A DNA stretch of 64,000 bases from an uncultured Alphaproteobacteria bacterium (GCA_902515745.1 CABXWB010000008.1:21171-85170); one strand, 5' to 3'; positions 20,970 through 45,892 are shown, counted from the stretch's first letter. Numbers and translations are program-made. Notes: generated from the letters alone by a model not told the origin.

Positions 20970-20971
20970 CT

Positions 20972-22734: not shown

Positions 22735-22750
22735 TTATTTAAGATAAAGA

Positions 22751-22772
22751 TAGGGCAGGATTTCCTGCCCTA
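22751..22772 (-). promoter_or_regulatory. Intercistronic hairpin between binding protein and permease (operon 1)
   Basis: TAGGGCAGG, loop ATTT, CCTGCCCTA: a perfect 9-bp stem just after the binding-protein stop and 17 nt before the permease start. It lacks a long U-tract, so it is more likely a 3' RNA stabiliser or partial terminator that keeps binding-protein mRNA in excess over permease mRNA. Confidence 0.75.
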
Positions 22773-22784
22773 ATTTATATATAA

Positions 22785-24029: not shown

Positions 24030-24049
24030 TTTTCCTCCCTTTTGATTAA

Positions 24050-24079
24050 ATTATAAAAGGACAATCAATATCTTGACAA
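24050..24079 (-). promoter_or_regulatory. Sigma-70 promoter of GtsA-like operon, with overlapping inverted repeat
   Basis: On the minus strand TTGTCA (24079-24074, 5 of 6), an 18-nt spacer and a perfect TATAAT (24055-24050) lie upstream of the binding-protein gene. TTGAC-TTTATT-GTCAA, an inverted repeat with 5-nt arms and 6-nt spacer, overlaps the -35 box and could be a repressor site. No regulator gene is next to the operon. Confidence 0.6.
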
Positions 24080-24119
24080 TAAAGTCAACCAGTTAAATTA
24101 ACGCAATTTGATAGTAATA

Positions 24120-26116: not shown

Positions 26117-26118
26117 AA

Positions 26119-27945: not shown

Positions 27946-27965
27946 TTTTATAAATTTTTTAGTGT

Positions 27966-27989
27966 AAAGCAGGGTTGACACCCTGCTTT
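27966..27989 (-). promoter_or_regulatory. Intercistronic hairpin between binding protein and fused permease (operon 2)
   Basis: AAAGCAGGGT, loop TGAC, ACCCTGCTTT: a perfect 10-bp stem between the binding-protein stop (28004) and the permease ATG (27945). It is placed as in operon 1 and probably separates expression levels of binding protein and permease, by RNA stabilisation or partial termination. Confidence 0.75.
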
Positions 27990-28003
27990 TTAAAATTTAG
28001 TTA

Positions 28004-29257: not shown

Positions 29258-29349
29258 CTTTTCCTCCCTTTAATATATCTTATAGAAGTTATATTGATCA
29301 AAAAATCAAGCGAAAAAAAGGTTATTTAAAAATTAAATATTATTATTTT

Positions 29350-30177
29350 TTAATTATTTGGTGAGAGAACTTGCTCGTGGGGCATTACTATTTTTTTTTG
29401 AAATTCAGTAAGATTTGATAGTAATTTTTTTGAAGGTCTATATGGGTGTCTGAAAAAACCCCAAGAAGGTCCATATCTGTAAACAACAATTCTTCTTTCT
29501 CCCTTATTTGTTCTTTTTGCAGACCCATGACAGAGTGAATCAACGAATAATAGTCCATCACCAGCTTTTAAATAAATTTCTTTTGAAGCAGTCATATTAT
29601 CAGCAGATGTAACTTTACCTTTTTTCATAGAATGTTTTTCAAATTCGGGATGACGTATATTTGATTTATGAGATGAAGGTATAATTACAGTACCACCATC
29701 ACCAGGACCAATATCTTTTAACGCTAATAGTATATTTACTTGACCACAATGAAACTTTCCTTCTTGAAATCTATAATGATTTCTTTGAAGAGCTTCGTGA
29801 TGGCCAGAGTGAATTCCAATAGCTTCCCCCGGTCCTCTTATATTAGCAAAATTTTCATCTATAAATAATGGACCATGATGTTGATCAAAAGTATCTTTGC
29901 CACCAACAAAATGAAGCATGTGATTAATCCAAGATGGATGATCAATTAATTTTTCGAATGGCTTACCTGCTTCGTAAATTTGCTGAAGATTAAGACCTTC
30001 TTTCCCACCATAGTTGTGACCATGAACATGTCCTGCCCATTCATTATTTTTTATATTTTTTAATTTATCTAAAATATTGTTAAGATTTTTTAATTCACTT
30101 TTATTTAAAGCATTTTCAATTACTAAGTATCCATTTAGATCAAATAGATATTCATCAAGCTTAGAAACTTTTTTCAC
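29350..30177 (-). CDS. Phytanoyl-CoA dioxygenase (PhyH)-family protein with atypical HxG motif
   Basis: A 275-residue protein of the PhyH superfamily of Fe(II)/2-oxoglutarate enzymes. Family features are GPGDGGTVIIPSSHKSN, AGDGLLFVDSLCHGS with the probable distal His217, and a following Arg pair (ERRIVVYRYG) that could bind 2-oxoglutarate. Where HxD is expected I read GIHSGHHEALQRNHYRF, so His123 is followed by Ser-Gly and the usual carboxylate is missing. Chemistry is therefore uncertain. It lies 45 nt downstream of the aldolase gene, upstream of the second sugar operon. Confidence 0.82.
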   Translation of the reverse strand: MKKVSKLDEYLFDLNGYLVIENALNKSELKNLNNILDKLKNIKNNEWAGHVHGHNYGGKEGLNLQQIYEAGKPFEKLIDHPSWINHMLHFVGGKDTFDQHHGPLFIDENFANIRGPGEAIGIHSGHHEALQRNHYRFQEGKFHCGQVNILLALKDIGPGDGGTVIIPSSHKSNIRHPEFEKHSMKKGKVTSADNMTASKEIYLKAGDGLLFVDSLCHGSAKRTNKGERRIVVYRYGPSWGFFRHPYRPSKKLLSNLTEFQKKIVMPHEQVLSPNN

Positions 30178-30222
30178 AATTATATTTTGAAGTAAAAATT
30201 TATTCTTTTCAAGAATAAAAGT

Positions 30223-31287
30223 CTAATTTATGACTGCTTTAAACTCGCCAGATTTGTATTTTTTTGACATTTCGCCTAAAGAAATTGAGTTTATTGATGA
30301 AGCATTTCCTGCAGTTCCAAATTCTTGAAGTCTGCTTTTTACAACTTCTTTCATAGCGTCTTTTGAAAGTAATAAATATTTACGAGGATCAAATTGTGAT
30401 GGATTTTCATGAAAATATTTTCTCACTGCAGCTGTAGCTGCTAATCGTAAATCTGTATCAACATTAACTTTTCTAACACCATGTTTTATTCCTTCTTGAA
30501 TTTCAGAAACAGGCACACCATAAGTTTCTTTTATTTTTCCACCGTATTCATTAATAGTTTTTATTAAGTCTTGTGGCACTGATGATGATCCATGCATAAC
30601 CAAATGTGTATTTGGAAGTCTTGAATGTATTTCTTTAATTCTATTGATCGCTAAAATATCACCTGTAGGTGGTCTAGAAAATTTATATGCTCCATGACTT
30701 GTTCCTATAGCAATTGCTAGAGCATCAACATTTGTTGCTTTAACAAAGTCTGAAGCTTCATTTGGATCCGTTAACAATTGATCATGATCAAGTTTACCTT
30801 CTGCTCCAACACCATCTTCTTTTTCACCAGTCCCAGTTTCTAAAGAGCCTAAACATCCAATTTCACCTTCTACAGAAACTCCCAATGCATGTGCCATATC
30901 AGTAGTTTCTTTAGTAACTCTAACATTATAATCAAAATCTGAAGGTGTTTTTTGATCATCCAATAAAGAACCATCCATCATCACAGAAGTAAAACCAAGA
31001 TCGATACAATTTTTACAATCTGATGGAGAACCACCATGATCTTGATGTAAAACAGTTGGTATGTCTGAAAACTCGTCCATTGCTGCTTCAACTAATTTTT
31101 TAACAAAAATTGGTCCAGCATATCTTCTAGCAGCGCCAGATGCTTGCAGAATTACAGGACTATTTAATTCTTTAGCCCCTTCCATTATTGCTCTGATTGC
31201 TTCTAAGTTATTTACATTAAAAGCTGGTACGCCATAATCATTTTCAGCAGCATGATCTAAGAGTTGTCGAAGCGAAATTAATGACAT
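30223..31287 (-). CDS. fba: Class II fructose-1,6-bisphosphate aldolase
   Basis: A 354-residue Zn-dependent aldolase cleaving or forming fructose-1,6-bisphosphate. Visible elements: [12 protein letters not shown], the zinc and base region [13 protein letters not shown] near residue 82, [13 protein letters not shown] with a Zn-ligand Glu, [11 protein letters not shown], and [10 protein letters not shown] with another ligand His, then NVDTDLRLA. The pattern fits the Fba/CbbA subtype. It probably connects imported sugars with central glycolysis or gluconeogenesis. Confidence 0.93.
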
Positions 31288-31331
31288 AAGTGAACCCTAT
31301 TAAACATAATAATAATTTATTCAACTAAACA

Positions 31332-32450
31332 GTGAAAGAAATTTTAAAATATTCTTGTCTAATTTTTTTATATGCTTTGTCACATAGTTATTTAGCAACA
31401 TGTTTTGCAATTGATTTAAAAATAAAAGGTTATGAAGAGCGTTACATAGGTCTATCATTATCATTCTGGGGTATTGGAGTTATTTTAGGAGCATTATTAC
31501 ATAATTTAATAAGAAGAAAATTAAATTTGATTTCAACAATTTTGTATGGCTCATTAATTCAATTTACATTCTCATTAATTTTTTTATTTGATCAGAATAC
31601 TTTCCTTGTAGCTTTAATGCAATTTGTTATGGGTATAACAAGTGCAATTAATTCATTAACGCTTGAATCACACATCAGCTCTAAATTTAAAAAGACATCT
31701 GGTTTCTATATATCATTATTTTGGTCATCTGCTGGATTAGGAGCAATTACTGGAAGTCTATTTATAGCAATTAATGGTATAAATCATTTAACCTATTATA
31801 TAGCTGTTTTATTTTTTATTATGCATTTTATTCCAATTTATTTATTTCGTTTATCTATTAGTAAGATTGCCGTTGAAAACCTGAGTCTTAGATTATCTAA
31901 AAACGTTTTAAGTAAAATTAAATATTTACTTTTTTGTGTAATATTATTTGGTGCATGTGATGCTGGATTCAGTTCTTTATTTCCATCTTACTTATTAGAG
32001 CAAAATTATAGTGATAAGCAAATTGGAAGCATTAATTTTTTAGCAGGAGCAATAGCATTATTTTTTTACCCATTTATGGGTAAGCTAGTTGACAATTACA
32101 ATAAAACTATAATTTTTAATTTATTTTGCTTCATAAACTTAATTAACTTAGTACTACTTTATTCGATTAGTGATTTTTATATCTATGTACTTTGTGTTGC
32201 TTTTTACTATTATACAATTGGGACAGTTTTTTTAATTACATTTAATATTGTTGGAAAAAAACTTGAAGGAGGAGTTATAGTTTTTGGAATAGCAGGTCAC
32301 TATATAAGTGAGAATATCGGGAGTTTTCTTGGACCTAATCTTATTGGAAATATTATTAATATAAATATAAATTATTTCTTTTTAGTTTTTTTTGTTATCT
32401 ATATTTTAATTATTGGATTATTTAATTTTAATAATTTTAAAAGACTATAA
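31332..32450 (+). CDS. MFS-family transporter
   Basis: A 372-residue, very hydrophobic protein with about 12 membrane segments and the major-facilitator layout of two six-helix halves. Features include GLSLSFWGIGVILGALLHNLIRRK in the first half (loop 2-3 region) and YPFMGKLVDNYNK in the second. The start codon is GTG at 31332. Divergent from the aldolase gene and followed by an oxidoreductase gene 7 nt downstream, so the two may handle the same compound. Substrate unknown. Confidence 0.82.
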   Translation: MKEILKYSCLIFLYALSHSYLATCFAIDLKIKGYEERYIGLSLSFWGIGVILGALLHNLIRRKLNLISTILYGSLIQFTFSLIFLFDQNTFLVALMQFVMGITSAINSLTLESHISSKFKKTSGFYISLFWSSAGLGAITGSLFIAINGINHLTYYIAVLFFIMHFIPIYLFRLSISKIAVENLSLRLSKNVLSKIKYLLFCVILFGACDAGFSSLFPSYLLEQNYSDKQIGSINFLAGAIALFFYPFMGKLVDNYNKTIIFNLFCFINLINLVLLYSISDFYIYVLCVAFYYYTIGTVFLITFNIVGKKLEGGVIVFGIAGHYISENIGSFLGPNLIGNIINININYFFLVFFVIYILIIGLFNFNNFKRL

Positions 32451-32457
32451 AAAAACT

Positions 32458-33624
32458 ATGGAAAAAAATTTAAGTATAGCTCTCGTAGGTTTAGGTTTTG
32501 GAGCTGATTTTATTCCGATCTATATTAATCATCCATTAGTTAGAAAATTAACAATTTTTGATTCAAATATTCAAGTTTTAGAAGAGGTAGGAAATCGATT
32601 TGAACTGGCAAATAAAGCTAGAAGCTTTGAAGAAATACTTGATGATAAAAGTATTGATGCCGTACATTTAGTAACGCCAATACCTCTACATGCAAAACAA
32701 ACAATTGATGTCTTTGAATCTGGTAAACATTGTGCTTGTACTGTTCCAATGGCGACAAGTATTAAAGATCTATTAAAAATATTAAAAGCCCAAAAAAAAA
32801 GTAATAAAGTTTATATGGGAATGGAAACTGCAGTTTACACACGTCATTTCATATACGTACAAGAAATGTTAAAAAAAGACAAAATTGGTAGAATTCAATT
32901 GCTTCGAGGGGCGCATTATCAAGATATGGAAAAATGGCCTTCTTATTGGATGGGATTACCACCTATGCATTATGCTACGCACGCAATTTCTCCTGTTCTT
33001 GCTTTAGCCAATACATATGCAAAATCTGTTCACTGTTTTGGTTCAGGAGTTATGCGTAAAGAACTAATAAATCAATACAATAATCCTTACCCAGTTGAAA
33101 CTGCAATTTTTGAATTAGAATATGAGACACCTCTTGCAGCTGAAGTAACGCGAAGTTTATTTCATACAGCAAGAGATTATACTGAAAGTTTTAATATATA
33201 CGGAGAAAAAGGAACGTTTGAATGGCAGCAACTTGAAAACGATAATCCTGTAGTATTTGAAATGAACCCAGATGATAAATCTTCACATATTGCAAGCATG
33301 GGTAGAGGTAATAAAATTACTTTTGAGCATATCAATGTACCAGATCGCCAGGATTTGTTACCTAAAGAAATAGCTCGTTTTACTAAAGAAGAAATATTTA
33401 ATAAAGATAAAGAACATCTTAGTTTCATTCAAGGTGGTGGTCATCATGGATCTCATCCACATCTCGTTAATGAATTTATTTTAAGTATTCATGAGAATCG
33501 GCAACCATGGCCAAATGGATCTATTACTGCTAATTGGGTAGCAGCAGGAATTTGTGCACATGAATCCGCAATGGATGGTGGTCGCAAAATATTAATTCCA
33601 AATTTTCAAAAAGATTTTGAATAA
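32458..33624 (+). CDS. Gfo/Idh/MocA-family oxidoreductase (with MFS gene)
   Basis: An NAD(P)-dependent oxidoreductase of 388 residues from the ATG at 32458, which gives the normal start MEKNLSIALVGLGFGADF; the track start at 32413 lies inside the MFS gene. Rossmann motif VGLGFGA; HLVTPIPLHAKQT; the expected EKP segment reads CACTVPMATS, so the usual Glu-Lys-Pro is not conserved. HYATHAISPVLAL and GGHHGSHPHLVNEF are His-rich blocks in the C-terminal domain. The altered EKP suggests a distinct subfamily or reaction. Confidence 0.83.
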   Translation: MEKNLSIALVGLGFGADFIPIYINHPLVRKLTIFDSNIQVLEEVGNRFELANKARSFEEILDDKSIDAVHLVTPIPLHAKQTIDVFESGKHCACTVPMATSIKDLLKILKAQKKSNKVYMGMETAVYTRHFIYVQEMLKKDKIGRIQLLRGAHYQDMEKWPSYWMGLPPMHYATHAISPVLALANTYAKSVHCFGSGVMRKELINQYNNPYPVETAIFELEYETPLAAEVTRSLFHTARDYTESFNIYGEKGTFEWQQLENDNPVVFEMNPDDKSSHIASMGRGNKITFEHINVPDRQDLLPKEIARFTKEEIFNKDKEHLSFIQGGGHHGSHPHLVNEFILSIHENRQPWPNGSITANWVAAGICAHESAMDGGRKILIPNFQKDFE

Positions 33625-33635
33625 AATACTTTAAA

Positions 33636-33712
33636 TGGTGGGCCCTCAGGGACTTGAACCCCGGACCACCCCGTTATGAGCGGGGCGCTCTAACCAACTG
33701 AGCTAAGAGCCC
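33636..33712 (-). tRNA. tRNA with CAU anticodon, probably tRNA-Ile2(CAU)
   Basis: 77 nt, minus strand, with CCA encoded. The acceptor GGGCTCT pairs with AGGGCCC (one G-U), the D-arm has AGCTCAGTTGGTTAGAGC, the anticodon stem CCCCG/CGGGG encloses CTCATAA (anticodon CAU), and the T-arm has GTTCAAGTC. The TTAGCTCAG and GTTCAAGTCC context resembles E. coli ileX more than elongator tRNA-Met, so I favour the lysidine-modified isoleucine tRNA reading AUA; elongator Met remains possible. Confidence 0.9.
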
Positions 33713-33760: not shown

Positions 33761-33961
33761 TTAGGAAATAAACATTTTTTTAACTGCATTGTAAAAATCT
33801 TCAGTTACAGTAAAATAAAAGCTATTTTCCTCATGTAATGAATTATTTCCATGACCATTTTCAGTATGAAAATCTGTAAGGTGCTTAAAAAAATTATTTA
33901 TATCTGGGATTTTATATTTTCTTCCATCATCACTTGTTACAAAATAGTTTTTACTATTCAC
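33761..33961 (-). CDS. Small conserved-looking protein of unknown function (66 aa)
   Basis: I do not recognise this protein. It is hydrophilic and acidic-to-neutral, with SDDGRKYKIPDINNFFKHL and ENSFYFTVTEDFYNAVKKM, and no membrane segment or signal. The start is a GTG that overlaps the upstream ATPase stop by 8 nt, so it reads as the last gene of the family-5 transporter operon. The balanced composition and tight coupling support a real gene; without homology data this is inference. Confidence 0.55.
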   Translation of the reverse strand: MNSKNYFVTSDDGRKYKIPDINNFFKHLTDFHTENGHGNNSLHEENSFYFTVTEDFYNAVKKMFIS

Positions 33962-35582
33962 CTATAACCTCAAAAGCTGATTGAACTAATTGTTTGGTAT
34001 AGGCGTTTACTGGATTATCGAGCACATTTTTAGTAATTCCTTCTTCAATTACTTTTCCATCTTTCATAACCAAAGTATAATGACACAGTGATCGAATTAC
34101 TTTCAAATTATGGCTAATAAAAATATATGACAAATTGTGATTTCTTCTTAAAGATCTCAACAAATCAATAATTTGTGCCTGAATAGATAAATCCAATGCA
34201 GAAGTTGGTTCATCAAGTAAAATAAATTCTGGATTTAAAATTATAGCTCTAGCAATCGCAATTCTTTGCCTTTGGCCACCTGAAAATTCATGAGGGAAAC
34301 GATGAAGGACAGCTTCATCAAGATTTACTTCATTTAGTGTTTTTTTTATTAAATCGTCTTTTTCTTCTTTTGATAAATCTTTTCTATTTATTTCTAATCC
34401 CTCGCCTATTATTTGTTTTATTGTATGTCTAGGATTTAAAGAGGAAAAAGGATCTTGAAAAACAATCTGCATATGTTCTCTTAAATCTTTTAATTGCTTA
34501 GTATTGTAATCTTGTATTTCTTCATCTTTAAAAAATATTTTTCCAGAATTTATATCTTGTAGTTTTATAAGTGACATTCCAAGTGTGCTTTTACCTGATC
34601 CACTTTCTCCAACAATGCCAATAGTTTCACCATAACGCGCTTTAATATCAACATTATTCACTGCAATTAATTCTGTTTTCTTTTGATTAAAAAAATTGCC
34701 TTTTCTCAATGTAAATTTAACAGTACATTGCTGTCCTTGTATTATATAATCTTTATTGCTTGCATCATAAGGATCGGGTTCACCACTAGGTTCAGAATTA
34801 ATTAAATGTTTTGTATATTCATGTTGAGGATTATTAAATACATCTTCTGTAATACCTCTCTCAACTATTTTTCCATATCGCATTACGCATATTCTATCAC
34901 TAGTTTTTCTTACAACAGTTAAATCATGTGTAATAAGCATAATTGCCATTCCATATTTTTTTTGTAGATCCTTTAGCAATTTTAATATTTGTGATTGTAT
35001 TGTAACATCTAAAGCAGTTGTGGGTTCATCAGCTATTAATAGGTCTGGTCTGTTTGCAATAGCCATTGCAATCATAACTCTTTGTCTTTGACCCCCCGAT
35101 AACTGATGCGGATATTGATTTAATCTTTCTTCTGGTTGAGGAATCTGAACTTCTTTTAATAATTCAAGGGCTCTTTCTTTTGCAACAATTTTATCAATTT
35201 TTTTGTGTTCTCGTAAAACCTCTATCAATTGACTACCAATTTTATGAAGAGGATTCAAACTTGTAAGAGGCTCTTGAAATATCATAGTAATAGTATCACC
35301 TCTAATTTGTCTCATCTGTTCCTGAGTTAAATTTGTAATATCTACATCCTTAAACTCAATCTTGAAATTTGAACCAATTGATGAATTCTTAGGTAGCATT
35401 TTCATAATAGTTCTAGCAGTGACTGATTTTCCTGAACCTGACTCACCAACAACAGCAAGGGTTTCACCTTTCATTATGTCAAAAGATATATCATTTACTG
35501 CATTGACAATTCCTCCCTCTACACTGAATTTTACTTCAGCATTTTTAAGATCTAATAATTTCTGATTATTTTGTGACTGCAT
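33954..35582 (-). CDS. Oligopeptide/oligosaccharide ABC transporter ATPase, fused DppD-DppF type
   Basis: A 542-residue protein with two complete ATPase domains in tandem, as in YejF. Domain 1 has Walker A GESGSGKSVT, signature LSGGQRQRVMIAMAI and Walker B LLIADEPTTALD; domain 2 has GESGSGKSTLG, FSGGQRQRIAIARAI and FILLDEPTSALD, each with its H-loop (LITHDL, FISHNL). It drives the DppB/DppC-like permeases encoded just upstream, overlapping the second by 17 nt. Confidence 0.93.
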   Translation of the reverse strand: MQSQNNQKLLDLKNAEVKFSVEGGIVNAVNDISFDIMKGETLAVVGESGSGKSVTARTIMKMLPKNSSIGSNFKIEFKDVDITNLTQEQMRQIRGDTITMIFQEPLTSLNPLHKIGSQLIEVLREHKKIDKIVAKERALELLKEVQIPQPEERLNQYPHQLSGGQRQRVMIAMAIANRPDLLIADEPTTALDVTIQSQILKLLKDLQKKYGMAIMLITHDLTVVRKTSDRICVMRYGKIVERGITEDVFNNPQHEYTKHLINSEPSGEPDPYDASNKDYIIQGQQCTVKFTLRKGNFFNQKKTELIAVNNVDIKARYGETIGIVGESGSGKSTLGMSLIKLQDINSGKIFFKDEEIQDYNTKQLKDLREHMQIVFQDPFSSLNPRHTIKQIIGEGLEINRKDLSKEEKDDLIKKTLNEVNLDEAVLHRFPHEFSGGQRQRIAIARAIILNPEFILLDEPTSALDLSIQAQIIDLLRSLRRNHNLSYIFISHNLKVIRSLCHYTLVMKDGKVIEEGITKNVLDNPVNAYTKQLVQSAFEVIGE

Positions 35583-36693
35583 ATGGATCTACTGCGTCCC
35601 TTATTCCGTCTCCAAAAGCATTAAAAGCTAAAACAGTTAGTATAATCATTCCAACTGGAGAAATCATCCAGGGAGCATATGCAAAGCTTTGTATATCTAG
35701 AGCCTGATTTAACATTACACCCCATGAAACCATAGGATGCTGAACACCTACTCCGATGAAACTTAAAAAAGTTTCAACCAAAATAATTAGAGGAATACAA
35801 AATGACGTCCAGACGATTACATGAGATAAAGTATTCGGAAATATATGTTGAATCATTATTCTTGATCTAGACGCACCTAAAGCTCTTGCTGCTCTAACAA
35901 ATTCTAGGTTTCTTACTAAAAAAGTTTTACCTCTAATCTCTCTTGCAATTGATGCCCAATTTAATAAAACAATTATTCCAGCAAATAGTACAAAAACTGT
36001 CGTCTCATCGGCTCTTCTTGGCAAGAGAGCCACCAACGCAAAATATAATGGATAGGATGGAAATGATAATGCAAATTCTGTCACTCTTTGCGCTATTAAA
36101 TCATAAGTTCCTCCAAAATATCCTGAGCTTATACCAACCATTAATCCAATAACCAATGATGCTGAAACTGCGATTAAAGCAAAGAGCATAGTAATTTGTG
36201 TTCCAACAAACATTCTTGAAAGAATATCTCTCCCCATATTGTCAGTACCCAATAAGTGAATATTACCATCATTATTACCAAATAACCGAAGTTTTGTTTT
36301 TAAACCAAAAAAGGAGTATTCATCACCCTGAATAAAAAAATAAATAGGTATCATTTCATCTGAATTAGAATATGAAAATTCAAAAGTTTCCATATCCATT
36401 TCTTCAACAAGTTTGTAAACAAATGGTCTTAAGTGAAAATTACCTTCAGAATCAATAAACCGAATTAATTGTGGTGGATTATATAATTCATCCTGAACAG
36501 TTTTCTTATAACTATGTGGTGATAAAAATTCTGCAAAAAAAGCAATAAAAAAAATAAATAACACACCATATAAACCAAACATTCCATAACGATTTTTTTT
36601 TAATCTTAAATATGAGAGGTGCCAATGGGAATTTATGTTTGAAAATTTTTGTGCCTCAGCATTAAGAGATCTATTTTCATTTTTGGAAGTCAT
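35566..36693 (-). CDS. Family-5 ABC transporter permease, DppC/YejE-like
   Basis: An inner-membrane permease of 375 residues. N-terminal YLRLKKNRYGMFGLYGVLF is the usual first helix; a long periplasmic insertion (about residues 70-145) follows; HLLGTDNMGRDILSRMFVG and the EAA loop VRAARALGASRSRIMIQHIFP are canonical. The insertion resembles the YejE-type and rhizobial galactoside subfamily rather than short DppC. Coupled to the upstream permease by TAATG. Confidence 0.92.
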   Translation of the reverse strand: MTSKNENRSLNAEAQKFSNINSHWHLSYLRLKKNRYGMFGLYGVLFIFFIAFFAEFLSPHSYKKTVQDELYNPPQLIRFIDSEGNFHLRPFVYKLVEEMDMETFEFSYSNSDEMIPIYFFIQGDEYSFFGLKTKLRLFGNNDGNIHLLGTDNMGRDILSRMFVGTQITMLFALIAVSASLVIGLMVGISSGYFGGTYDLIAQRVTEFALSFPSYPLYFALVALLPRRADETTVFVLFAGIIVLLNWASIAREIRGKTFLVRNLEFVRAARALGASRSRIMIQHIFPNTLSHVIVWTSFCIPLIILVETFLSFIGVGVQHPMVSWGVMLNQALDIQSFAYAPWMISPVGMIILTVLAFNAFGDGIRDAVDPYAVTK

Positions 36694-37718
36694 TAAGCCT
36701 CACCTCCAGACATATCTCTAATACGAGGATCAAGTAATGCCAATATTATATCTGCAATGAAATTACCAATTACTAAAACAAGAGACAAAATCAAAAAAAT
36801 TGAAGATGCAACATATATATCCATTGTGGTAACTGATGATAAAATCAATGGTCCAATAGTTGGTATTGCTAAAACAATTGCTACTTCAATCTCTCCTTCA
36901 ATTAAATAGCCGACGCTTCTGCCTTGATTCATGATTATTGGATGTAAAGCATTTGGAACACCGTGTTTCCATATAATCTTACTTTCCTTTAACCCTTTAG
37001 CTCTTGCGGTTTCTATAAATTGCATTTTTAAAACATCTAATAAATTACCTCGCATCATTCTCATTTGATATCCTGCTCCTACAAAACTCCCAACTGCAAT
37101 AATTGGCCAGGTATGGAGTAAGAAATCCCATGTTTTTGCAAGACTCCACCAACCTTCTTGTAATACATATTGTTGTGAGAATATTGAGCCGTAATATGGT
37201 GAATGAAATTTTATGGCCCAAAAATATAATATAACCAATGCTACAATAAACTTAGGAATTGAAAAAGCTAAAAATGTAAAAACCGTAGCAAGTTGATCGC
37301 CTAGTTGATATTGATGTGTAGCTGCATAGACTCCAGCTAATATCCCAATAGTTACAGCATTAAAGTAACATATAAAAGCTAATAATAATGTTCGTGGAAC
37401 TCTATCACCTATTGCTTCATTAACTGATCTCTGTTGAATAAATGATTCTCCTAAATCCCAATAGAGAGTTATGTTTTTAACCCAATTAAAATATTGAATG
37501 TAAAGCGGTTTATCTAAACCTAATCTAACTCTTAAAGCTTCAGCTTGAGCTTCAGCATCTTTTTCACTAACACCTCCCATTGACATTGTTTGAGCTTTCC
37601 ATTGAGATGCATAATCACCAGGCATTGCCTGAACAAGAAGAAAAGCAACAAGAGTTATAGCAATTAATAGAGGAATAGTTGCAATAATTCTTTTTAATAA
37701 AAAAAATAAAAAAGCCAT
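36693..37718 (-). CDS. Family-5 ABC transporter permease, DppB/YejB-like
   Basis: A 341-residue membrane permease. N-terminus LLKRIIATIPLLIAITLVAF, then the LGLDKPLYIQYFNWVKN block, six membrane segments, and EAA loop IETARAKGLKESKIIWKHGVP. It is the first permease after the binding-protein gene, separated from it by a hairpin. Confidence 0.92.
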   Translation of the reverse strand: MAFLFFLLKRIIATIPLLIAITLVAFLLVQAMPGDYASQWKAQTMSMGGVSEKDAEAQAEALRVRLGLDKPLYIQYFNWVKNITLYWDLGESFIQQRSVNEAIGDRVPRTLLLAFICYFNAVTIGILAGVYAATHQYQLGDQLATVFTFLAFSIPKFIVALVILYFWAIKFHSPYYGSIFSQQYVLQEGWWSLAKTWDFLLHTWPIIAVGSFVGAGYQMRMMRGNLLDVLKMQFIETARAKGLKESKIIWKHGVPNALHPIIMNQGRSVGYLIEGEIEVAIVLAIPTIGPLILSSVTTMDIYVASSIFLILSLVLVIGNFIADIILALLDPRIRDMSGGEA

Positions 37719-37730
37719 AAATTATAAAAC

Positions 37731-37752
37731 TGGCCCATTGAAAAATGGGCCA
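37731..37752 (-). promoter_or_regulatory. Intercistronic hairpin between binding protein and permease (operon 3)
   Basis: TGGCCCATT, loop GAAA on the plus strand, AATGGGCCA: a perfect 9-bp stem 13 nt before the permease start and 15 nt after the binding-protein stop. This is the third hairpin at the equivalent position in this window. Confidence 0.75.
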
Positions 37753-37767
37753 TTGTATTGATTTGAT

Positions 37768-39795
37768 TTATTTATATTCTGCCAAAACACCAGGTAAGAA
37801 CTCATCTATTTGATCAGCTTTAGGGGTATAAAGTCTTTCCCTAAATATTGCATCTTCACCCCATTCGTACATATATACTGGAGTGCCTGGATGATTATTC
37901 TTTATCCTCTTGTTAATTAAAAGCGCAGCAGGTGTTTGTATTAAACCTATTGCATATAGATTTTCGGTACTTACCTTTTGAATTTCGTAAGCTTTTTCAG
38001 CAACAACTTTCAAATCATTAGTAGCAAGAATGTCGTTACCTAAATCAGCTAAAGTATTTTCAAATGCAAGTAAATCACCTTCATTACTTTTATGTTGAAC
38101 AGGATTTTCAGGTGTTATCGGTAACTCATCAGCCATGTTTTTCGTAACAACAAGCCAATTATGTCTATTGATATATAAATTCCAGTTTCCTGCATCAGTA
38201 AGTGCTTCCGTATCATTTGAAGGTTTTAATATAGGTTTTAATCCTACCGCTTCAAACATTGGAACAATACTATCCCCAATTTTAATATCAGTGGATCTTT
38301 CATTACTGAAAAGGATGTCCAATGCTATATCTTCTCCTCCATTAGGAAAATTTCTAATACCATTTCCATCACTATCAATAAGACCTAATCCATCTAAGAT
38401 TGAATTGGCACCATCAACATTGTATCCATAATAAACAGAATCCTCAAAGCGATGAAACGGAGATCCTGCAGAAAATCCTCCAGAATGAGGATGGAAGAAA
38501 GGACCTCTTGCAACAGATTGACCCATAGTGTCTCTATCCATTGCATGAGATAGTGCTTTTCTAAACTCCAAATTTCTGAAAAGTTTTCTTAACTCCCTAT
38601 CATAATCATCTTGAACTCCAAATTCAGATGATAGATTTACATATAATTTCCATGTCAAAGATCTAGAACCAAAGACTGATCTAACAGGCGAGTTAGGATC
38701 TTTATTTTGCTTTAAGGCTTCAACGTAGTTACCAGGATTTTCCATATTAGAATAATCACCAGTTCCTGCTAGAGCTTGCGTAGTTCTATCATCCCATGAG
38801 GTTAATTTATAAATCGTTTCATGGTAATATGGAAGTTGATTACATTCTTCATCAACTTTCCAATAATAAGGATTTCTTTTCATCACCACCAGTTCATCAA
38901 TTTTATGAGCAACTGGAACATAAGCTCCAAGTGTTGCTATTGGCACTTCATCAGGTGGTAAAGCCATTGTATATGAATCGTAAGTTGCATCACTGTTATA
39001 ATCTGGGTGATGTTGTTTTAAAATGTGAGAAGGCCCTGGAGCACCTCCCATATGCGCAAGCTGTGATAGAACAGCATTACCTTTTGGAGAATCAAAATTA
39101 AACCTAAACGAATATGGTCCTAAAATATCCACTGTCGTTCCTGCACCAAGAGCATCCTTTGGAAGCCTTGAGTTTACATTTGCATTCTGAACATTATCGT
39201 TCCACCAAAAATCTATATCTTCAGTATCAAAAGGGTCTCCATCAGACCATTTTACACCTTCAACTAAATTCATAGTTAAAGTAGTACGATCACTATTAAA
39301 CTCCCAATCAGTTGCTAGGTTTGGAAGAGGTAAAGCTTCTTCAGGTTTAACTTGCCATAGTGGGCCAAGTCTTGTTAATGATTGCATTAACTGCATGCTA
39401 ATGCCACCCCAACCTTGATGTTGTCCAGCTAACCAGTTCCAACCTTCAGGTCTTCCTCCAATAACATGACGAAATGTTCCGCCATAATCACCAATTCCAT
39501 CAACCATTTGAGCTTTTGACATCATCATTGGTGTTGTTGGAAGTCTCTCAGCTACTGGTGGAAGCTTTCCAGCTTCAACATAAGCAGCGGTTAACGGAGC
39601 TTCATTATAGCTATCACAACTTTGATAAGAATATAAATCATCTCTTCCAACTAATTCAACATCTATACCTGACATACTTTTATCAGGTGGTAGAGTTTCA
39701 AGAGCACTAGCACCAGAAGTCATAGCAATCATGCTAACACCTACAAGTAAACTTGCTGCTTTACTCTTGAAAGTAAATTTGGTTTCAATACCCAT
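37768..39795 (-). CDS. Family-5 ABC transporter substrate-binding protein (peptide or oligosaccharide)
   Basis: A 675-residue periplasmic protein of the SBP_bac_5 family, longer than DppA (about 535). The signal peptide ends ASA-LE near residue 32. Typical features are WEFNSDRTTLTMNLVEGVKWSDGDPF and FRKALSHAMDRDTMG. Size and pairing with a fused ATPase match YejA-like and rhizobial AgpA-like proteins; AgpA binds melibiose and raffinose. With two GH4 glycosidases next door, an alpha-galactoside or similar glycoside is a reasonable inferred ligand, but peptides cannot be excluded. Extended Shine-Dalgarno AAAGGGAGGA is present. Confidence 0.9.
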   Translation of the reverse strand: MGIETKFTFKSKAASLLVGVSMIAMTSGASALETLPPDKSMSGIDVELVGRDDLYSYQSCDSYNEAPLTAAYVEAGKLPPVAERLPTTPMMMSKAQMVDGIGDYGGTFRHVIGGRPEGWNWLAGQHQGWGGISMQLMQSLTRLGPLWQVKPEEALPLPNLATDWEFNSDRTTLTMNLVEGVKWSDGDPFDTEDIDFWWNDNVQNANVNSRLPKDALGAGTTVDILGPYSFRFNFDSPKGNAVLSQLAHMGGAPGPSHILKQHHPDYNSDATYDSYTMALPPDEVPIATLGAYVPVAHKIDELVVMKRNPYYWKVDEECNQLPYYHETIYKLTSWDDRTTQALAGTGDYSNMENPGNYVEALKQNKDPNSPVRSVFGSRSLTWKLYVNLSSEFGVQDDYDRELRKLFRNLEFRKALSHAMDRDTMGQSVARGPFFHPHSGGFSAGSPFHRFEDSVYYGYNVDGANSILDGLGLIDSDGNGIRNFPNGGEDIALDILFSNERSTDIKIGDSIVPMFEAVGLKPILKPSNDTEALTDAGNWNLYINRHNWLVVTKNMADELPITPENPVQHKSNEGDLLAFENTLADLGNDILATNDLKVVAEKAYEIQKVSTENLYAIGLIQTPAALLINKRIKNNHPGTPVYMYEWGEDAIFRERLYTPKADQIDEFLPGVLAEYK

Positions 39796-39882: not shown

Positions 39883-41412
39883 CTAAGAATTTACTGAAAG
39901 ATTAATATATTGGCTGTGAGTAAGGGAATCCTTGATTATTTCGTTAAATTTGTCTGAAAAATCATTGTAATATTTTCTAGATGTTGCTCGTAAATCATAT
40001 TTGCTCATTTGTTCTCTTGCGGATTCTTTACTTAGTAGACCCAGACCATCAACGACTGGGTAATATAATTGAGATTGTACATGAGGAAGGCCAGAGAGAT
40101 AATCATCAAAATGATCAAGACTTGGAAGTTCATCTTGCCATAAAGAAATATATTTTTTTGTTTCTTCGCTTATACATTCATCGGAAACGTATTGCCAAAA
40201 TTTTGAATCTCTTCTTTTTGAAACATAGTGCATATTTAAAAAAGTTTTAAAATCATCAAATTGTCGTCCAATTCGATTATTAAAATTAGATATTAATTCT
40301 TCATTATTAAAGTCCATTTCTTTCTTAAGATATTCAGTTGCAAATAAAATAATTTGAATCAAAGTACTATGAATAGAAGTAGCTTCTAAGGGTTCGAGGA
40401 AACCAGATGATAAACCGATAGCTAAACAATTTTTAACCCAATATTTTTCTAATCTACCACTATTAAACTTAATGTCTCGTCTTGGTTCAATTTTGTGTCC
40501 AAGAACTTTTTCTATTTCTTCTTGTGCTTGATCTGGTGAGATAAATTGATCACAATAAACATAACCAGCACCAATTCTTTCTTGTGTAGGAATTTGCCAC
40601 ATCCATCCATACTTTTGGGCCCAAGCTAAAGTATAATTAATGTAGTTTTCTTCTTTTATGTCTAAAAAAAATGGCATCGCTCTATTTACAGGAAGATTAT
40701 CTTGATAAGAGATCCATTTGGTTTTGAATACATCTCCAATAATCAATTTTTTAAAACCACTACAATCAATAACTAAATCAACATCCAATTCTAAACCACT
40801 TTCAAAACATAGAGATTTTATTGTTCCATCTACATTTTGCGTTGATGATGTGTAAATATCATCAATAATCTCAATATTTTTAGATCTTTTATTTAAATAG
40901 CTTGCAACTTGAGAATTATCAAAATGATATGCATAATAAAATGGGCTTATTAGTTCTAAATTATTATTTTTAAAAGTATAAGGTACTTTTTTATTTTGCA
41001 TAAGCATTGTATGCAAATGAATTTCAGAAACTGGTCTTCCAGCAGCGACAGCATATGCTTTTAAATATTCAAAATTTTCTGGTTTGTTTTTTGGAGCAAT
41101 TAATTGCGGGTCATCTATAGGTCCATAATACGTATATCCTAATTCTTTCCAGTCTTTATGTACTATTCCAAATTTTAATGTAGCTTTTGTTTCTTTCAAA
41201 AAATCAGATTCATCTAAATTATATTTTTTTAAAAATTCATAAAATATGCTGGTAGTCCCCTCTCCAACCCCAATTGTTGGTATTTTAGAAGACTCTATTA
41301 TTTTAACATTTGTATTAAGTTTATTAGAATAAAAAAAGTCACTTAATATATATGCAGCTAACCATCCAGCAGTGCCTCCACCTAAAATTACGACATTTTT
41401 TATTTCTTTCAT
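39883..41412 (-). CDS. Flavin-dependent halogenase (tryptophan-halogenase family)
   Basis: A 509-residue FADH2-dependent halogenase-family protein. FAD motif GGGTAGWLAA at residues 11-20; Lys80 in KATLKFGIVHKDW matches the catalytic Lys79 of PrnA; WMWQIP at 270-275 is the WxWxIP halogenase signature that blocks mono-oxygenation; Glu343 in LEPLEATS matches the second catalytic residue (Glu346 of PrnA). So the active site looks complete. It starts 3 nt after the GH4 gene, in the same operon. Substrate unknown; a free indole, a peptide residue or a glycoside aglycone are all possible. The flavin reductase partner is not adjacent. Confidence 0.9.
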   Translation of the reverse strand: MKEIKNVVILGGGTAGWLAAYILSDFFYSNKLNTNVKIIESSKIPTIGVGEGTTSIFYEFLKKYNLDESDFLKETKATLKFGIVHKDWKELGYTYYGPIDDPQLIAPKNKPENFEYLKAYAVAAGRPVSEIHLHTMLMQNKKVPYTFKNNNLELISPFYYAYHFDNSQVASYLNKRSKNIEIIDDIYTSSTQNVDGTIKSLCFESGLELDVDLVIDCSGFKKLIIGDVFKTKWISYQDNLPVNRAMPFFLDIKEENYINYTLAWAQKYGWMWQIPTQERIGAGYVYCDQFISPDQAQEEIEKVLGHKIEPRRDIKFNSGRLEKYWVKNCLAIGLSSGFLEPLEATSIHSTLIQIILFATEYLKKEMDFNNEELISNFNNRIGRQFDDFKTFLNMHYVSKRRDSKFWQYVSDECISEETKKYISLWQDELPSLDHFDDYLSGLPHVQSQLYYPVVDGLGLLSKESAREQMSKYDLRATSRKYYNDFSDKFNEIIKDSLTHSQYINLSVNS

Positions 41413-41415
41413 TGC

Positions 41416-42900
41416 TTAAGCATCAAATTCGAATGCTTGTGCTTCCACAAGTAAAGAAGATGCTTCATCATTTTTAAGTTCTTCAGGAGATCTAGTTTTC
41501 ATTCTTGCTGCACCTTTAAAATTTTTCTTTTTTACATTAGAATTTTTAATTCTCTCTAAAGCTAGCTCAATTTCATTTTGATATTGAGGAAGCCATTTAG
41601 ATTGGGCTACAATCATTTCATCAACCATAGACCAAACTTCATCAGGTGAACAAACTGCACTAACTAATGGATCTTGCAAAACAGCTAATTTTAATAAATT
41701 TAAATCTCCGTCTATTGCAGCTTTGACTGCCATTCTCTGAACATCTATCGATGTTCTACACAGTGATGCACACGCCATTGGCAGCTCAATGCCTTTAATC
41801 ATTTTAATTCCATCTTTATCAACTGTTCCAGTGCTTTCAATAACACAGTCATCTGGTAAATTTGTTATAGTGCCATTATTAACTACATTGAAATGGCCAC
41901 GATAAGGTCTATTTGTTTCAATTGACTCTATTATATAACTTCCGTGTTCCGAAGATCTTTTATGATTATTTAAATCGATCCCCGACTCACTTAAAAATTT
42001 TTCAAAGTCTTCTTCAAACCAATTTCTTTTCTCAGAAGTAACTCTTAAATATCCTCCAGTTTCACCATGTATCCAATTTGATAAATCTATCCATTTAGGA
42101 ATATCATCAACTCTTTTTCTATACCATGGAAGATACTCACTTAAATGACCATTACTCTCAGTAGAGAATAAACCAAATCTTTTCAGAATATCAATTCTTA
42201 CTTTTTCTTGTTTTGAAATTTCTGGATGTCTTTCTAATGCATCTACAAGTTCTTCTTTTGATACTTTTTTCCCTTTGAATTTAAGATCTATATACCAAGT
42301 CATATGATTAATTCCGCTACACATATATTCAAGATCTGTAGAGTTTTCTGAGCCTAATGCTTTAGAGATTAGTTTTGCACCACCTTGAACGCCGTGACAT
42401 AGTCCTACAGTGTTTACTTTTGCTTCTGATATTGCTGCCCAAGTATTCATGGCCATTGGATTAGAATAATTCAAAAACAAAGCATTTGAATCCGAATAAG
42501 ATTTTATATCTTTGCAAAAATTTAAGGTTTGGGGAATATTTCTTTGACCATATAAAATTCCTCCAGCGCAAATTGTGTCTCCTACACACTGATCTATACC
42601 ATATTGAAGAGGAATATTAATATCATGCTCAAATGCTTCTAATCCTCCAATGCGTGTACAATTAATTATATATTTTGCTCCTTCCAATGCTTTTTTTCTA
42701 TCGGTTGATTGTTCAATAGTTGCTGGAAGATTATTTGCATCAATATCTTTTTGGATAAGTTTTGAAACAAATTCTAAATTTTTTTCAGAAATATCGTGAA
42801 AAAAGAAATTTGTTTCATGAAATTCAGGAACCTTTAGCAAATCTCTTACTAATGTTTGAGTAAATCCTATACTTCCAGCTCCAATAAAACTAACTTTCAT
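41416..42900 (-). CDS. Glycoside hydrolase family 4 enzyme (alpha-galactosidase/alpha-glucosidase-like)
   Basis: A 494-residue NAD- and metal-dependent GH4 enzyme. The N-terminal MKVSFIGAGSIGFTQTLVRDLL is the NAD-binding motif; NYSNPMAMNTWA, the metal-ligand Cys in GLCHGVQGG and His in CSGINHMTWY are conserved. GH4 enzymes cleave glycosides by transient oxidation at C3 rather than direct hydrolysis. Family members include alpha-galactosidase, alpha-glucosidase and alpha-glucuronidase; the exact specificity is open. Co-transcribed with the halogenase. Confidence 0.9.
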   Translation of the reverse strand: MKVSFIGAGSIGFTQTLVRDLLKVPEFHETNFFFHDISEKNLEFVSKLIQKDIDANNLPATIEQSTDRKKALEGAKYIINCTRIGGLEAFEHDINIPLQYGIDQCVGDTICAGGILYGQRNIPQTLNFCKDIKSYSDSNALFLNYSNPMAMNTWAAISEAKVNTVGLCHGVQGGAKLISKALGSENSTDLEYMCSGINHMTWYIDLKFKGKKVSKEELVDALERHPEISKQEKVRIDILKRFGLFSTESNGHLSEYLPWYRKRVDDIPKWIDLSNWIHGETGGYLRVTSEKRNWFEEDFEKFLSESGIDLNNHKRSSEHGSYIIESIETNRPYRGHFNVVNNGTITNLPDDCVIESTGTVDKDGIKMIKGIELPMACASLCRTSIDVQRMAVKAAIDGDLNLLKLAVLQDPLVSAVCSPDEVWSMVDEMIVAQSKWLPQYQNEIELALERIKNSNVKKKNFKGAARMKTRSPEELKNDEASSLLVEAQAFEFDA

Positions 42901-42970
42901 ATTTATATCCTATACTCCCTGATATTTATTGACAATATTTAATTTATCAAAGAAATTAAAGTTTATTTAT

Positions 42971-43711
42971 ATGAGCGACATAAAGGAATTCATCTCAAAT
43001 GGCTTTGTCATAAAGAAAAAACTCTTTTCTAATGAAGAGATTGATAAATTAAATCAATATTTAGCCTTTAGAAAAGATAAAGAAGAAACTGCAAGAGAAA
43101 CTACTACTTCAACTGGGAAATTAACGATGACTATGTGGAATCATCCTTCAGAGGATTTGTTTGGAAAATTCTCTACTAATGAAAGAATAGTTAAACCAAT
43201 GGAAATGTTTTTAAATGATGAAGTATATCATTATCATTCTAAAATTATTTGGAAAAATCCTGGTGATGGTGGATTTGATTGGCACCAGGATTATGGTTAT
43301 TGGTATCATAATGCTTGTCTTTACCCTGATATGGCATCATGTTTTATAATGTTAGATAAAGCAAATAAAGAAAATGGTTGTCTTAAGGTATTAAAAGGAT
43401 CTCATCGAGTTGGAAGAATTAGCCATGCACGATCAGATACATCCGAACAAACTGCAGATAATGAAAGAATAAAAGAATTAGAAAAAAGACATGAATCTGT
43501 TTACATTGAAGCAGAACCAGGAGATGCATTATTCTTTCATGCAAATTTATTACACTCTTCTGATGCGAATAAATCACAAAATTCTAGAAGAACATTAATT
43601 GTATGTTTTAATACTAAATCCAATAATCCTTATAAAGAAATTGGACATGCTTCTTACAACCAGTTAAAAGTGGCAAAACATAATTCAATAATGGAGTATA
43701 AAATTGACTAA
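42971..43711 (+). CDS. Phytanoyl-CoA dioxygenase (PhyH)-family oxygenase with canonical HxD
   Basis: A 246-residue Fe(II)/2-oxoglutarate oxygenase. The ATG at 42971 (MSDIKEFISNGFVIKKK) is chosen over the track start. Metal-ligand motif WHQDYGYWYHN, CLKVLKGSHRVGR, distal His in GDALFFHANLLHSSDAN, and Arg in NSRRTLIV are all as expected. Marine PhyH proteins often hydroxylate or demethylate small metabolites. Divergent from the GH4 gene and coupled (8-nt overlap) to the MelA-like gene, so it may modify a glycoside or its aglycone. Confidence 0.88.
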   Translation: MSDIKEFISNGFVIKKKLFSNEEIDKLNQYLAFRKDKEETARETTTSTGKLTMTMWNHPSEDLFGKFSTNERIVKPMEMFLNDEVYHYHSKIIWKNPGDGGFDWHQDYGYWYHNACLYPDMASCFIMLDKANKENGCLKVLKGSHRVGRISHARSDTSEQTADNERIKELEKRHESVYIEAEPGDALFFHANLLHSSDANKSQNSRRTLIVCFNTKSNNPYKEIGHASYNQLKVAKHNSIMEYKID

Positions 43712-45065
43712 ACTTACAATCATTGGTGCTGGTAGCGCAGTATTTACAAAAAATATTTTTACCGATTTAATGTTTATAGATGATTTTAAAAAAATGGACA
43801 TTGCACTTGTAGATATTGATGAAAAAAGATTAAAAATTTCACATGAATTATTAGATGTAATAGCAAAAAAATTAAATGCTTCTCCAAATATAAAATCTTA
43901 TACTAATAGAAAAGAGGCGTTGGCAGGTTCTGATTTTGTACAATCAACTATCCAAGTGGGAGGATACAAACCATCAACAGTAATAGATTTTGATATTCCA
44001 AATCAATTTGGGTTAAAACAGACAATTGCTGATACCCTAGGCATTGGAGGAATTATGAGAGGCCTAAGAACAATTCCCGTTTTAGTTGATATTGGTAAAG
44101 ATATAATGGATCTTTGTCCAAATTCATTATGGCTTCAATATGTAAACCCTATGTGTTCAAATATGATAGCAATAAATAATGCTTGTCCAGGAATTAAATC
44201 AATAGGACTTTGTCATTCTGTGCAAGGAACTGCCGAAATGCTTGCTAGAGATTTAAATGAGAAAATTGAGGACATTGATTATCTGTGTGCTGGGATAAAT
44301 CACATGGCTTTCTATAAAAAGTTTTCAAAAAAAAATGGTAATGGGGGAGAAGATCTTTATCCAAGATTGAAAAAATTAGCTGATGATATTGTAACTGATA
44401 AAATAACATCAACTAGAAGTATAGGCAAAGATACCGAATCTGACAAAGTGCTACATGAAAAAGTAAGATACGAAATTTTAAGACGGTTTGGTTATTTTGT
44501 TACAGAGTCTAGTGAACATTTTGCTGAGTATGTTCCATGGTTCATTAAACAAAACAGACAGGATTTAATTGATCAATATAAAATTCCAATCGAAGAGTAT
44601 ATCGATAGATGTGAAAATAACATTAAGCTATGGGATGACTTAGAAAAAGATATGACACCTATTAATAATCAACCTCTTAAAAGAGGAAAAGAATATGCAT
44701 CATATATTATGGATGCTGTGGCTAACAATAATGAGGTAACTATAAACGGTAATGTGATGAATGATGGATATATAGATAATTTACCTTCAAACTGTTGCGT
44801 AGAAGTTCCATGTTTAATTAATTCAAATGGAAATCAGCCTCAAAATACTGGTCGCCTACCCGAACATTTGGCAGCTTTAATGAGAACAAATATAAACGTG
44901 CAAATATTGACGGCTGAAGCTGCACTAACCAATAAAAAAGAGCATATCTATCATGCTGCCATGCTTGATCCATTAACGGGAGCAAATTTATCAATTGATG
45001 AAATATATGCAATGGTTGATAAGTTAATTGAAGCACACGGGAATTACTTACCTGAATATCATTGA
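43704..45065 (+). CDS. melA: GH4 alpha-galactosidase, MelA-like
   Basis: A 453-residue GH4 enzyme that lines up along its length with E. coli MelA as I recall it: GAGSAVFTKNIFTDL, QTIADTLGIGGIMRGLRTIP, LCHSVQGTAEMLARDLN, CAGINHMAFY, FVTESSEHFAEYVPWFIK, and the C-terminal MVDKLIEAHGNYLPEY. It should need NAD, Mn2+ and release galactose from alpha-galactosides. The start is a TTG inside the PhyH gene end, and the stop overlaps the next gene (TGATG). Confidence 0.9.
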   Translation: MTKLTIIGAGSAVFTKNIFTDLMFIDDFKKMDIALVDIDEKRLKISHELLDVIAKKLNASPNIKSYTNRKEALAGSDFVQSTIQVGGYKPSTVIDFDIPNQFGLKQTIADTLGIGGIMRGLRTIPVLVDIGKDIMDLCPNSLWLQYVNPMCSNMIAINNACPGIKSIGLCHSVQGTAEMLARDLNEKIEDIDYLCAGINHMAFYKKFSKKNGNGGEDLYPRLKKLADDIVTDKITSTRSIGKDTESDKVLHEKVRYEILRRFGYFVTESSEHFAEYVPWFIKQNRQDLIDQYKIPIEEYIDRCENNIKLWDDLEKDMTPINNQPLKRGKEYASYIMDAVANNNEVTINGNVMNDGYIDNLPSNCCVEVPCLINSNGNQPQNTGRLPEHLAALMRTNINVQILTAEAALTNKKEHIYHAAMLDPLTGANLSIDEIYAMVDKLIEAHGNYLPEYH

Positions 45066-45892
45066 TGTCTAAACTTACTGTTAAAGATTTATTTGATAAA
45101 AAAGGGAAAGTTAAATTGACAGAACTGTATGTTACAAATGCTTTAGAAGCGTATGCAGCTGAACAAGCTGGCATAGATATCCAAATTGTTTCATTCAAAA
45201 AAGATACTTTAAGAACAGGTGTGCCTACAAACAAATGGTTTAGAGACGCTCATATTAAAGATATTCGAGAAGCCGCTCCAAATACTTTTATGATTTATGG
45301 TCTTGGTCAATTGTCTTCTCCAGAAAAAGCAATTGATGCTGCTCTTATTGCAAGAGAAAATGGAGCTGATGCAGTTTACTCTGGTAATAGCCCAAAATAT
45401 ATAGAAGCTCTTCGAAATGAAGGATTGCCAGCAGTTAGTCATATTGGTTTAATACCATATAAAAGTACATGGACGGGCGGTTTCAAAGCAGTTGGAAAAG
45501 ATGCTACATCTGCTTTTAATGTTTATCAAGATGCTTTAGCATACGATCAAGCAGGTGCAATTGGTCTTGAGGTAGAATGTGTGCCTGATAGAGTCGCAGA
45601 AATTATTACAAAAAAAGTTAATTTGTTAACGTTATCTATGGGAAGTGGTCCAAAATGTGATGTTGAGTTTTTATTTATTCAAGATGTTATTGGAACAAAT
45701 ACAGATAGAGTACCTCGTCATGCTAAAGTATTTAAAAATACAAATAAATCATACGAAAAGCTTATTGATGATACTATAGAAGGACTTAAAAATTTTATTA
45801 AGGATGTAAATAATAAACAATTTCCAACTCCATCAAATATAGTAGAAATAAAAGATGAAGAGTTTGAAAAATTTTTAAATAAGATTGGTTAG
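45065..45892 (+). CDS. PanB-like protein (ketopantoate hydroxymethyltransferase homologue) lacking metal ligands
   Basis: A 275-residue TIM-barrel protein of the PanB / PEP-mutase-like group. Retained blocks are SHIGLIPYKSTWTGGFKAVGK, LEVECVP (Glu171, matching E. coli Glu181), and SMGSGPKCDVEFLFIQDVIG. By eye alignment the Mg2+ and substrate residues are gone: GDS (Asp45) is SFK, DLP (Asp84) is GLG, and EGG (Glu114) is SGN. It is therefore unlikely to be a normal pantothenate enzyme. The ATG at 45065 (TGATG with melA) is preferred. The operon suggests a role in glycoside or aglycone catabolism. Confidence 0.75.
   Translation: MSKLTVKDLFDKKGKVKLTELYVTNALEAYAAEQAGIDIQIVSFKKDTLRTGVPTNKWFRDAHIKDIREAAPNTFMIYGLGQLSSPEKAIDAALIARENGADAVYSGNSPKYIEALRNEGLPAVSHIGLIPYKSTWTGGFKAVGKDATSAFNVYQDALAYDQAGAIGLEVECVPDRVAEIITKKVNLLTLSMGSGPKCDVEFLFIQDVIGTNTDRVPRHAKVFKNTNKSYEKLIDDTIEGLKNFIKDVNNKQFPTPSNIVEIKDEEFEKFLNKIG

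Follow-up and report, generated by a model that had tools for sequence, protein, structure and literature searches.

The gene of the flavin-dependent halogenase (FDH) family in a 64,000-nucleotide stretch of DNA from an uncultured alphaproteobacterium (the window) very probably belongs to an alpha-galactoside operon of the mel/agp type. Comparative genomics ties the halogenase genetically to the alpha-galactoside system. Both are of known kinds, and their combination is recurrent and apparently unreported; in the open-access literature searched, we came across no paper that links a halogenase to the genes of an alpha-galactoside operon. Judged from its sequence, the region between 33.7 and 45.1 kb reads as a mel/agp-like alpha-galactoside system together with a halogenase-family gene and a PhyH-type oxygenase gene. 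Its features are as follows.

33636-33712, minus strand: tRNA-Met(CAT), the edge of an exchangeable slot
33954-35582, minus strand: two-domain ABC ATPase of the OppDF/AgpD type, in operon position and kept in all cassette loci
35566-36693, minus strand: ABC permease of the OppC/AgpC type, in operon position and kept in all cassette loci
36693-37718, minus strand: ABC permease of the OppB/AgpB type, in operon position and kept in all cassette loci
37768-39795, minus strand: family-5 solute-binding protein (SBP), 675 aa, homologue of the periplasmic alpha-galactoside-binding protein
39883-41412, minus strand: halogenase (FDH family protein), 509 aa, second gene of the operon (PF04820, E=1.7e-105)
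41416-42900, minus strand: GH4a, NAD-dependent glycosidase with a CHGV motif, first gene of the operon (PF02056/PF11975)
42929-43711, plus strand: PhyH-family 2OG-Fe(II) dioxygenase (PF05721, 2.5e-33), between the two GH4 genes and divergent from GH4a
43704-45065, plus strand: GH4b, the second GH4, of the CHSV type (NCBIfam alpha-galactosidase subfamily, 597 bits)

Among solved structures, the best relative of the SBP was the periplasmic alpha-galactoside-binding protein PDB 6EPY (E=6.4e-165 over residues 23-659, with the runner-up at 5e-45), the MelB protein of Agrobacterium; an alpha-galactoside is strongly indicated as the ligand of the window SBP. GH4a scored above the cut-off of the NCBIfam alpha-galactosidase subfamily. 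It is the counterpart of the upstream GH4 (the melA/agaL1 position) of rhizobial mel/agp operons, with 59% identity to that of Ensifer and 56-60% to the Sulfitobacter and Qingshengfaniella GH4 proteins. GH4b was 48-50% identical to the corresponding second GH4 proteins in Sulfitobacter, Ensifer (50%) and Qingshengfaniella, and it also occurs in relatives that lack the cassette. Since the SBP resembles 6EPY and the two GH4 proteins resemble the rhizobial mel/agp pair, the halogenase would lie within an operon for alpha-galactoside uptake and hydrolysis. The first-pass annotation of this DNA had recognized the halogenase, one GH4 and an adjoining family-5 transporter, whose ABC genes indeed occupy 33954-39795 on the same strand; it had missed the second GH4 and the PhyH gene, and had not recognized the transporter as one for alpha-galactosides. 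Its treatment of the GH4 and the transporter as unrelated does not hold, both being parts of one mel/agp-type system. The PhyH gene at 42929-43711 keeps its position between the GH4 genes in the loci of relatives, and its ATG start, for MSDIKEF, lies inside a listed TTG ORF.

In Sinorhizobium meliloti, agpT, melA and the genes downstream are needed for the use of raffinose and melibiose, and AgpT is an AraC-type activator (PMC4254191). With S. meliloti mel/agp (agpT, melA, agpABCD) and 6EPY, the window system shares a family-5 SBP, two permeases, a two-domain ATPase and two GH4 types (CHGV and CHSV). The operon of Ensifer canadensis comprises an AraC gene and the series GH4, SBP, permease, permease, ATPase, GH4, without a halogenase. 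The mel/agp operons examined (Ensifer and Qingshengfaniella) thus differ from the window operon in having no halogenase, and the latter differs in having no AraC regulator nearby. No regulator ORF, AgpT-like (AraC) or other, was found at 31-47 kb of the window, and the system is therefore filed as mel/agp-like.

The halogenase gene begins 3 nt past the end of GH4a, the spacing originally reported. At its start in the window sequence, no separate ribosome site was clearly apparent, as if the translation of the two genes were coupled. Together with 4-bp overlaps in a Sulfitobacter relative, the 3-nt gap strongly indicates an operon, and the earlier proposal that halogenase and GH4 are co-transcribed is probably right. 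A scan for promoters and terminators performed no better than on shuffled sequence. The halogenase was the single PF04820 match in the whole assembly (1.62 Mb in 42 contigs, 89.7% complete), which contains two flavin reductase genes (PF01613), none of them in the operon and one near the right edge of the window. No biosynthetic genes were found among the nearby ORFs examined, and a natural-product cluster was dismissed on this ground. Neither a dehalogenase nor an aromatic-ring pathway was seen beside the halogenase.

An intact halogenase gene was present in 27 of 110 genomes of the family, all of them from one genus, at 65-100% identity; disrupted copies were found in none of the 27. GH4a was in the same fetched locus in 25 of them, and in the other two (G074 and G023) the contig ended first. 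The genus has two operon layouts, both in a slot upstream of PhyH_2/GH4b/rpoD. Type A, that of the window, has the order GH4a-HALO-SBP-B-C-DF, and type B the order GH4a-SBP-B-C-DF-HALO, with the halogenase after the ATPase. Relative to the window, the ABC proteins of type B are 42-57% identical, the halogenase and GH4a about 65%, and the flanks up to 98%. In three cassette-less loci (L134, L137 and L139), tRNA-Met is directly beside GH4b, which represents the empty site. The same loci have a different sugar ABC transporter, with a family-1 SBP, on the other side of tRNA-Met. Two genomes with GH4a and no halogenase (G012 and G009) were rejected as real losses because their contigs stop before the expected place. 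A class-wide search with the SBP gave matches in this genus only, an undercount in that the top three candidates per genome were scored. ABC transporters for raffinose, stachyose and melibiose have been reported for AEGEAN-169/HIMB59 (PMC10308909), a group to which the sugar transporters found here would be suited.

A phylum-wide draw recovered a 48%-identical halogenase in Rhodobacterales, where it was present in 9 of 249 genomes of the family concerned. Eight of the nine had the ABC genes, GH4 and halogenase together (split over two contigs in G1092); in the ninth, G1061, the halogenase was on a different contig from a complete mel/agp operon. One further genome from the genus of G915 provided an additional ABC/GH4/halogenase case. 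Related gene sets were those of G831, G934, G963, G1028, G948, G983, G915, G1092 and G1139. A binding protein of the 6EPY type was found in 10 of the 249 genomes, including all nine with the halogenase (Fisher p ~1e-15, phylogeny ignored). The exception, G991, had the operon and the binding protein without the halogenase.

On plasmid unnamed1 of Sulfitobacter mediterraneus M342, a divergent AraC-type gene adjoins the series SBP-permease-permease-ATPase-GH4-halogenase-GH4. Overlaps of 4 bp join its last four ORFs, the halogenase, K3753_RS19290, is situated between the two GH4 genes, and IS elements are close to the operon. A plasmid of Qingshengfaniella alkalisoli carries the operon in the form seen in G991, without the halogenase. 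The binding protein is common in plasmid records, mostly those of rhizobia (260 records at a coverage of at least 80%). The operon-type halogenase was seen among plasmid records in Sulfitobacter only, the other halogenase matches listed reaching at most about 36%. Given its recurrence in 26 more members of the genus, in 8 sampled genomes of Rhodobacterales and on the Sulfitobacter plasmid, the halogenase/GH4 arrangement is not a matter of chance, and pairing by accident or mis-assembly was rejected. The first-pass annotation had called the pair unexpected and had proposed a neighborhood search, with no recurrence counting against its reading; the pair recurs, in two orders, and is no oddity, since it belongs to a recurrent alpha-galactoside operon.

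The class and phylum searches also returned other FDHs, of 30-36% identity, in other contexts. The next closest cellular halogenase (L092, in genome G195; 33-36%) is beside an M81/MlrC-type metallopeptidase, a non-biosynthetic context. On a plasmid of Sinorhizobium garamanticum (L172), a divergent member of the halogenase family (28%), whose FAD motif is the atypical GGDLVG, adjoins nif genes.

In the phylogenetic tree, the operon-linked halogenases formed one clade (support 100/99) apart from other alphaproteobacterial FDHs. When IMG/VR sequences were included, this clade (99/98) was nested among virus-associated halogenases, with 100/98 for the whole group; the viral set consisted of the matches listed in a scan that chose sequences by the peptides EPLEATSI or GTAGW, and cellular relatives were thinly sampled. 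Virus-associated halogenases, those of cyanophages and other marine phages included, made up the closest clade among the matches listed, sharing EPLEATS and mostly the K and WxWxI motifs. They differ in being 31-42% identical and in lying amid phage and 2OG-oxygenase genes, not in sugar operons. The phage halogenase VirX1, which matched the window halogenase at 7.5e-45, was outside the sequence set of the tree. Several of the halogenase-bearing viral contigs carry phage-like genes (assigned by eye from the translations), among them ORFs resembling helicases and recombination nucleases and genes for tail-like proteins and GroEL, as well as many 2OG-oxygenase-like ORFs. Five IMG/VR loci (L182, L205, L212, L217 and L222) have one to three halogenase-family genes amid arrays of small 2OG-Fe(II) oxygenase-like ORFs. 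In Prochlorococcus phage P-SSM2 (L258), a 2OG-Fe(II) oxygenase gene (PF13759) is two genes after the halogenase, an echo of halogenase plus PhyH in the bacterial cassette. In G915 and G1139, the halogenase gene is followed by a PhyH gene 57-58% identical to that at 29350-30177 of the window, and a similar one neighbors the halogenase in several type B genomes.

Types A and B were united in the halogenase tree. In the SBP tree, which carries a long-branch warning, the type A proteins grouped with those of some Rhodobacterales, and the type B proteins stood apart. The plain reading of this discrepancy is that the transporter was exchanged and the halogenase kept. Within type A, the halogenase had a dN/dS ratio of 0.04-0.05; against type B the value was about 0.2, and in the more distant pairs the synonymous sites were nearly saturated. 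By these estimates, the operon-linked halogenases appear to be under strong purifying selection. A loss-of-function relic was rejected, as the motifs are intact and dN/dS is low. A phage-derived halogenase could also travel by chance, as a neutral passenger, with a mobile sugar operon, which would suit the nesting among virus-encoded halogenases, the exchangeable slot by tRNA-Met and the plasmid copy near IS elements in Sulfitobacter. We regard this as very improbable in view of the low dN/dS within type A, the lack of any disrupted copy in the 27 genomes and the same association, in different layouts, in two orders.

The halogenase has the FAD motif GGGTAG at residues 11-16 (some relatives have A or S at the middle position of GGG), GVGEG at 48-52 and GWMWQIP at 269-275. 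Lys80, WMWQIP (270-275) and Glu343, which the first reading had named, are all there, and K80 and E343 correspond to K79 and E346 of PrnA. Lys80, Glu343, the tryptophans of WxWxIP and EPLEATSI were invariant across 13 aligned sequences, outgroup included, and the predicted catalytic residues were kept in every operon-linked relative examined. The structure prediction that had been suggested gave a confident AF2 model (pLDDT 89.4, pTM 0.89) with what is predicted to be a standard FDH fold; all 50 Foldseek matches listed were FDHs (E ~1e-43, TM 0.88 to Thal). The protein resembles the tryptophan halogenases PrnA, RebH, Thal and PyrH in fold (TM ~0.87-0.88) and in having the Lys, Glu and WxWxIP, and differs from them at 24-29% identity. 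Their indole contacts His101 and Phe103 are replaced by Gly97 and Ile99 in pairwise alignments, making tryptophan an unlikely substrate, and identity as a tryptophan halogenase was rejected because these contacts (PrnA H101 and F103) are absent. GPID is conserved in the alignment of operon-linked halogenases. An NCBIfam LodB match was weak and restricted to residues 6-75.

The tunnel/halide motif Fx.Px.Sx.G is altered to FLEPLEATS, with A344 in place of the serine and S346 in place of the glycine. The EPLEATS variant occurs in all operon-linked halogenases, and the alanine is shared with the viral relatives. BrvH, an active brominase, has the same glycine-to-serine change at the halide site (PMC5945002, PMC7336383), and the active Xcc enzymes also lack the motif glycine (PMC7336383); the altered motif therefore lowers the likelihood of halogenase activity and does not exclude it. 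Like BrvH and Xcc4156, which are non-tryptophan two-component FDHs, the window halogenase has the FDH fold, the Lys/Glu pair and WxWxIP (PMC5945002; PMC7336383). It differs from them, in a comparison made without a joint tree, in Ala344 and in its operon context.

The replaced serine and glycine would suit the repurposed redox enzyme suggested in the first-pass annotation, an FDH fold kept without halogenation whose action on the galactoside or its aglycone would be hydroxylation, dehydrogenation or some other modification. LodB relatives with PF04820-like domains carry out non-halogenating chemistry. The presence of EPLEATS in every operon member and the purely catabolic context, with sugar-acid genes in G1092, point the same way. 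We nevertheless consider such an oxidase rather unlikely. The invariant Lys, Glu and WxWxIP are tied to the use of HOX and to the blocking of mono-oxygenation (PMC5945002), and the serine is also that of active BrvH.

The best explanation of these data, and in our view a probable one, is that the protein is a dedicated cytosolic flavoenzyme of the alpha-galactoside pathway, whose most likely action is to oxidize or halogenate either the galactoside taken up or its aglycone. For true halogenation of either molecule, we would put the chances at slightly below even. Judging by homology to 6EPY, the binding protein and ABC importer very likely carry an alpha-galactoside to the cytosol, where GH4a and GH4b, using NAD+ and a metal as is expected of their family, would free galactose. 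The halogenase-family enzyme, supplied with FADH2 by a reductase encoded elsewhere, might then act on the imported galactoside or the freed aglycone; the most likely chemistry would be the formation of hypohalous acid from O2 and halide, perhaps delivered via Lys80/Glu343 to an electron-rich ring. The same molecule may also be a substrate of the neighboring 2OG-Fe(II) oxygenase. That galactose is the sugar set free is supported by G1092, where the operon includes GH4, the halogenase, an IlvD/Edd-type dehydratase, an SDR, 2-keto-3-deoxygalactonokinase (DgoK) and a KDPG-type aldolase, a predicted gene set that matches the De Ley-Doudoroff galactose route.

The enzyme is probably dispensable for alpha-galactoside use as such, given the Ensifer and Qingshengfaniella operons without it and the separate contig in G1061. 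Being optional, it probably serves to widen or complete the utilization of some specific marine galactoside, as opposed to melibiose or raffinose. That mel/agp systems can do without it would also fit a true halogenase whose product is a halogenated signal or toxin, made when alpha-galactosides reveal that an alga is close by, with the operon as no more than the switch; the divergent AraC-type gene of Sulfitobacter, like agpT of S. meliloti (PMC4254191), could serve such a switch. A pathway role is suggested instead by the position of the halogenase in Sulfitobacter, flanked on each side by a GH4 gene that overlaps it by 4 bp, by the streamlined genome without biosynthetic genes beside it and by its retention through the change of transporter lineage. 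Signal or toxin production is thus improbable.

Returning to the dedicated pathway enzyme, we propose tentatively, as something less than likely, that nutrient catabolism can include a step of halogenation, or of oxidation by a halogenase fold, in which this dedicated FDH subfamily, a relative of the phage halogenases, modifies an imported alpha-galactoside or its aglycone for the use of widespread ocean bacteria. If true, this would add a redox step to the feeding of open-ocean alphaproteobacteria on algal galactosides. The association suggests an unexplored role of halogenase-type flavin enzymes in sugar feeding. For many FDH-family genes no natural substrate is known; the present subfamily brings a strong substrate clue, namely a transport and hydrolysis operon with a predictable sugar part, an alpha-galactoside. 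The operon is present in the strain of a public plasmid record (Sulfitobacter mediterraneus M342), so the role of a non-tryptophan halogenase in its host is testable.

Upstream of the operon, 17993-33624 is a large sugar-catabolic island whose content differs among relatives. It contains two more carbohydrate ABC transporters, three Gfo/Idh/MocA dehydrogenases, an IolE-like isomerase, an aldo-keto reductase, a class II FBP aldolase, an MFS transporter and a PhyH oxygenase. Directly after GH4b, 45062-45892 encodes a PanB-like protein of the ketopantoate hydroxymethyltransferase family; it scores far below the panB cut-offs and is probably a different aldol-type enzyme.
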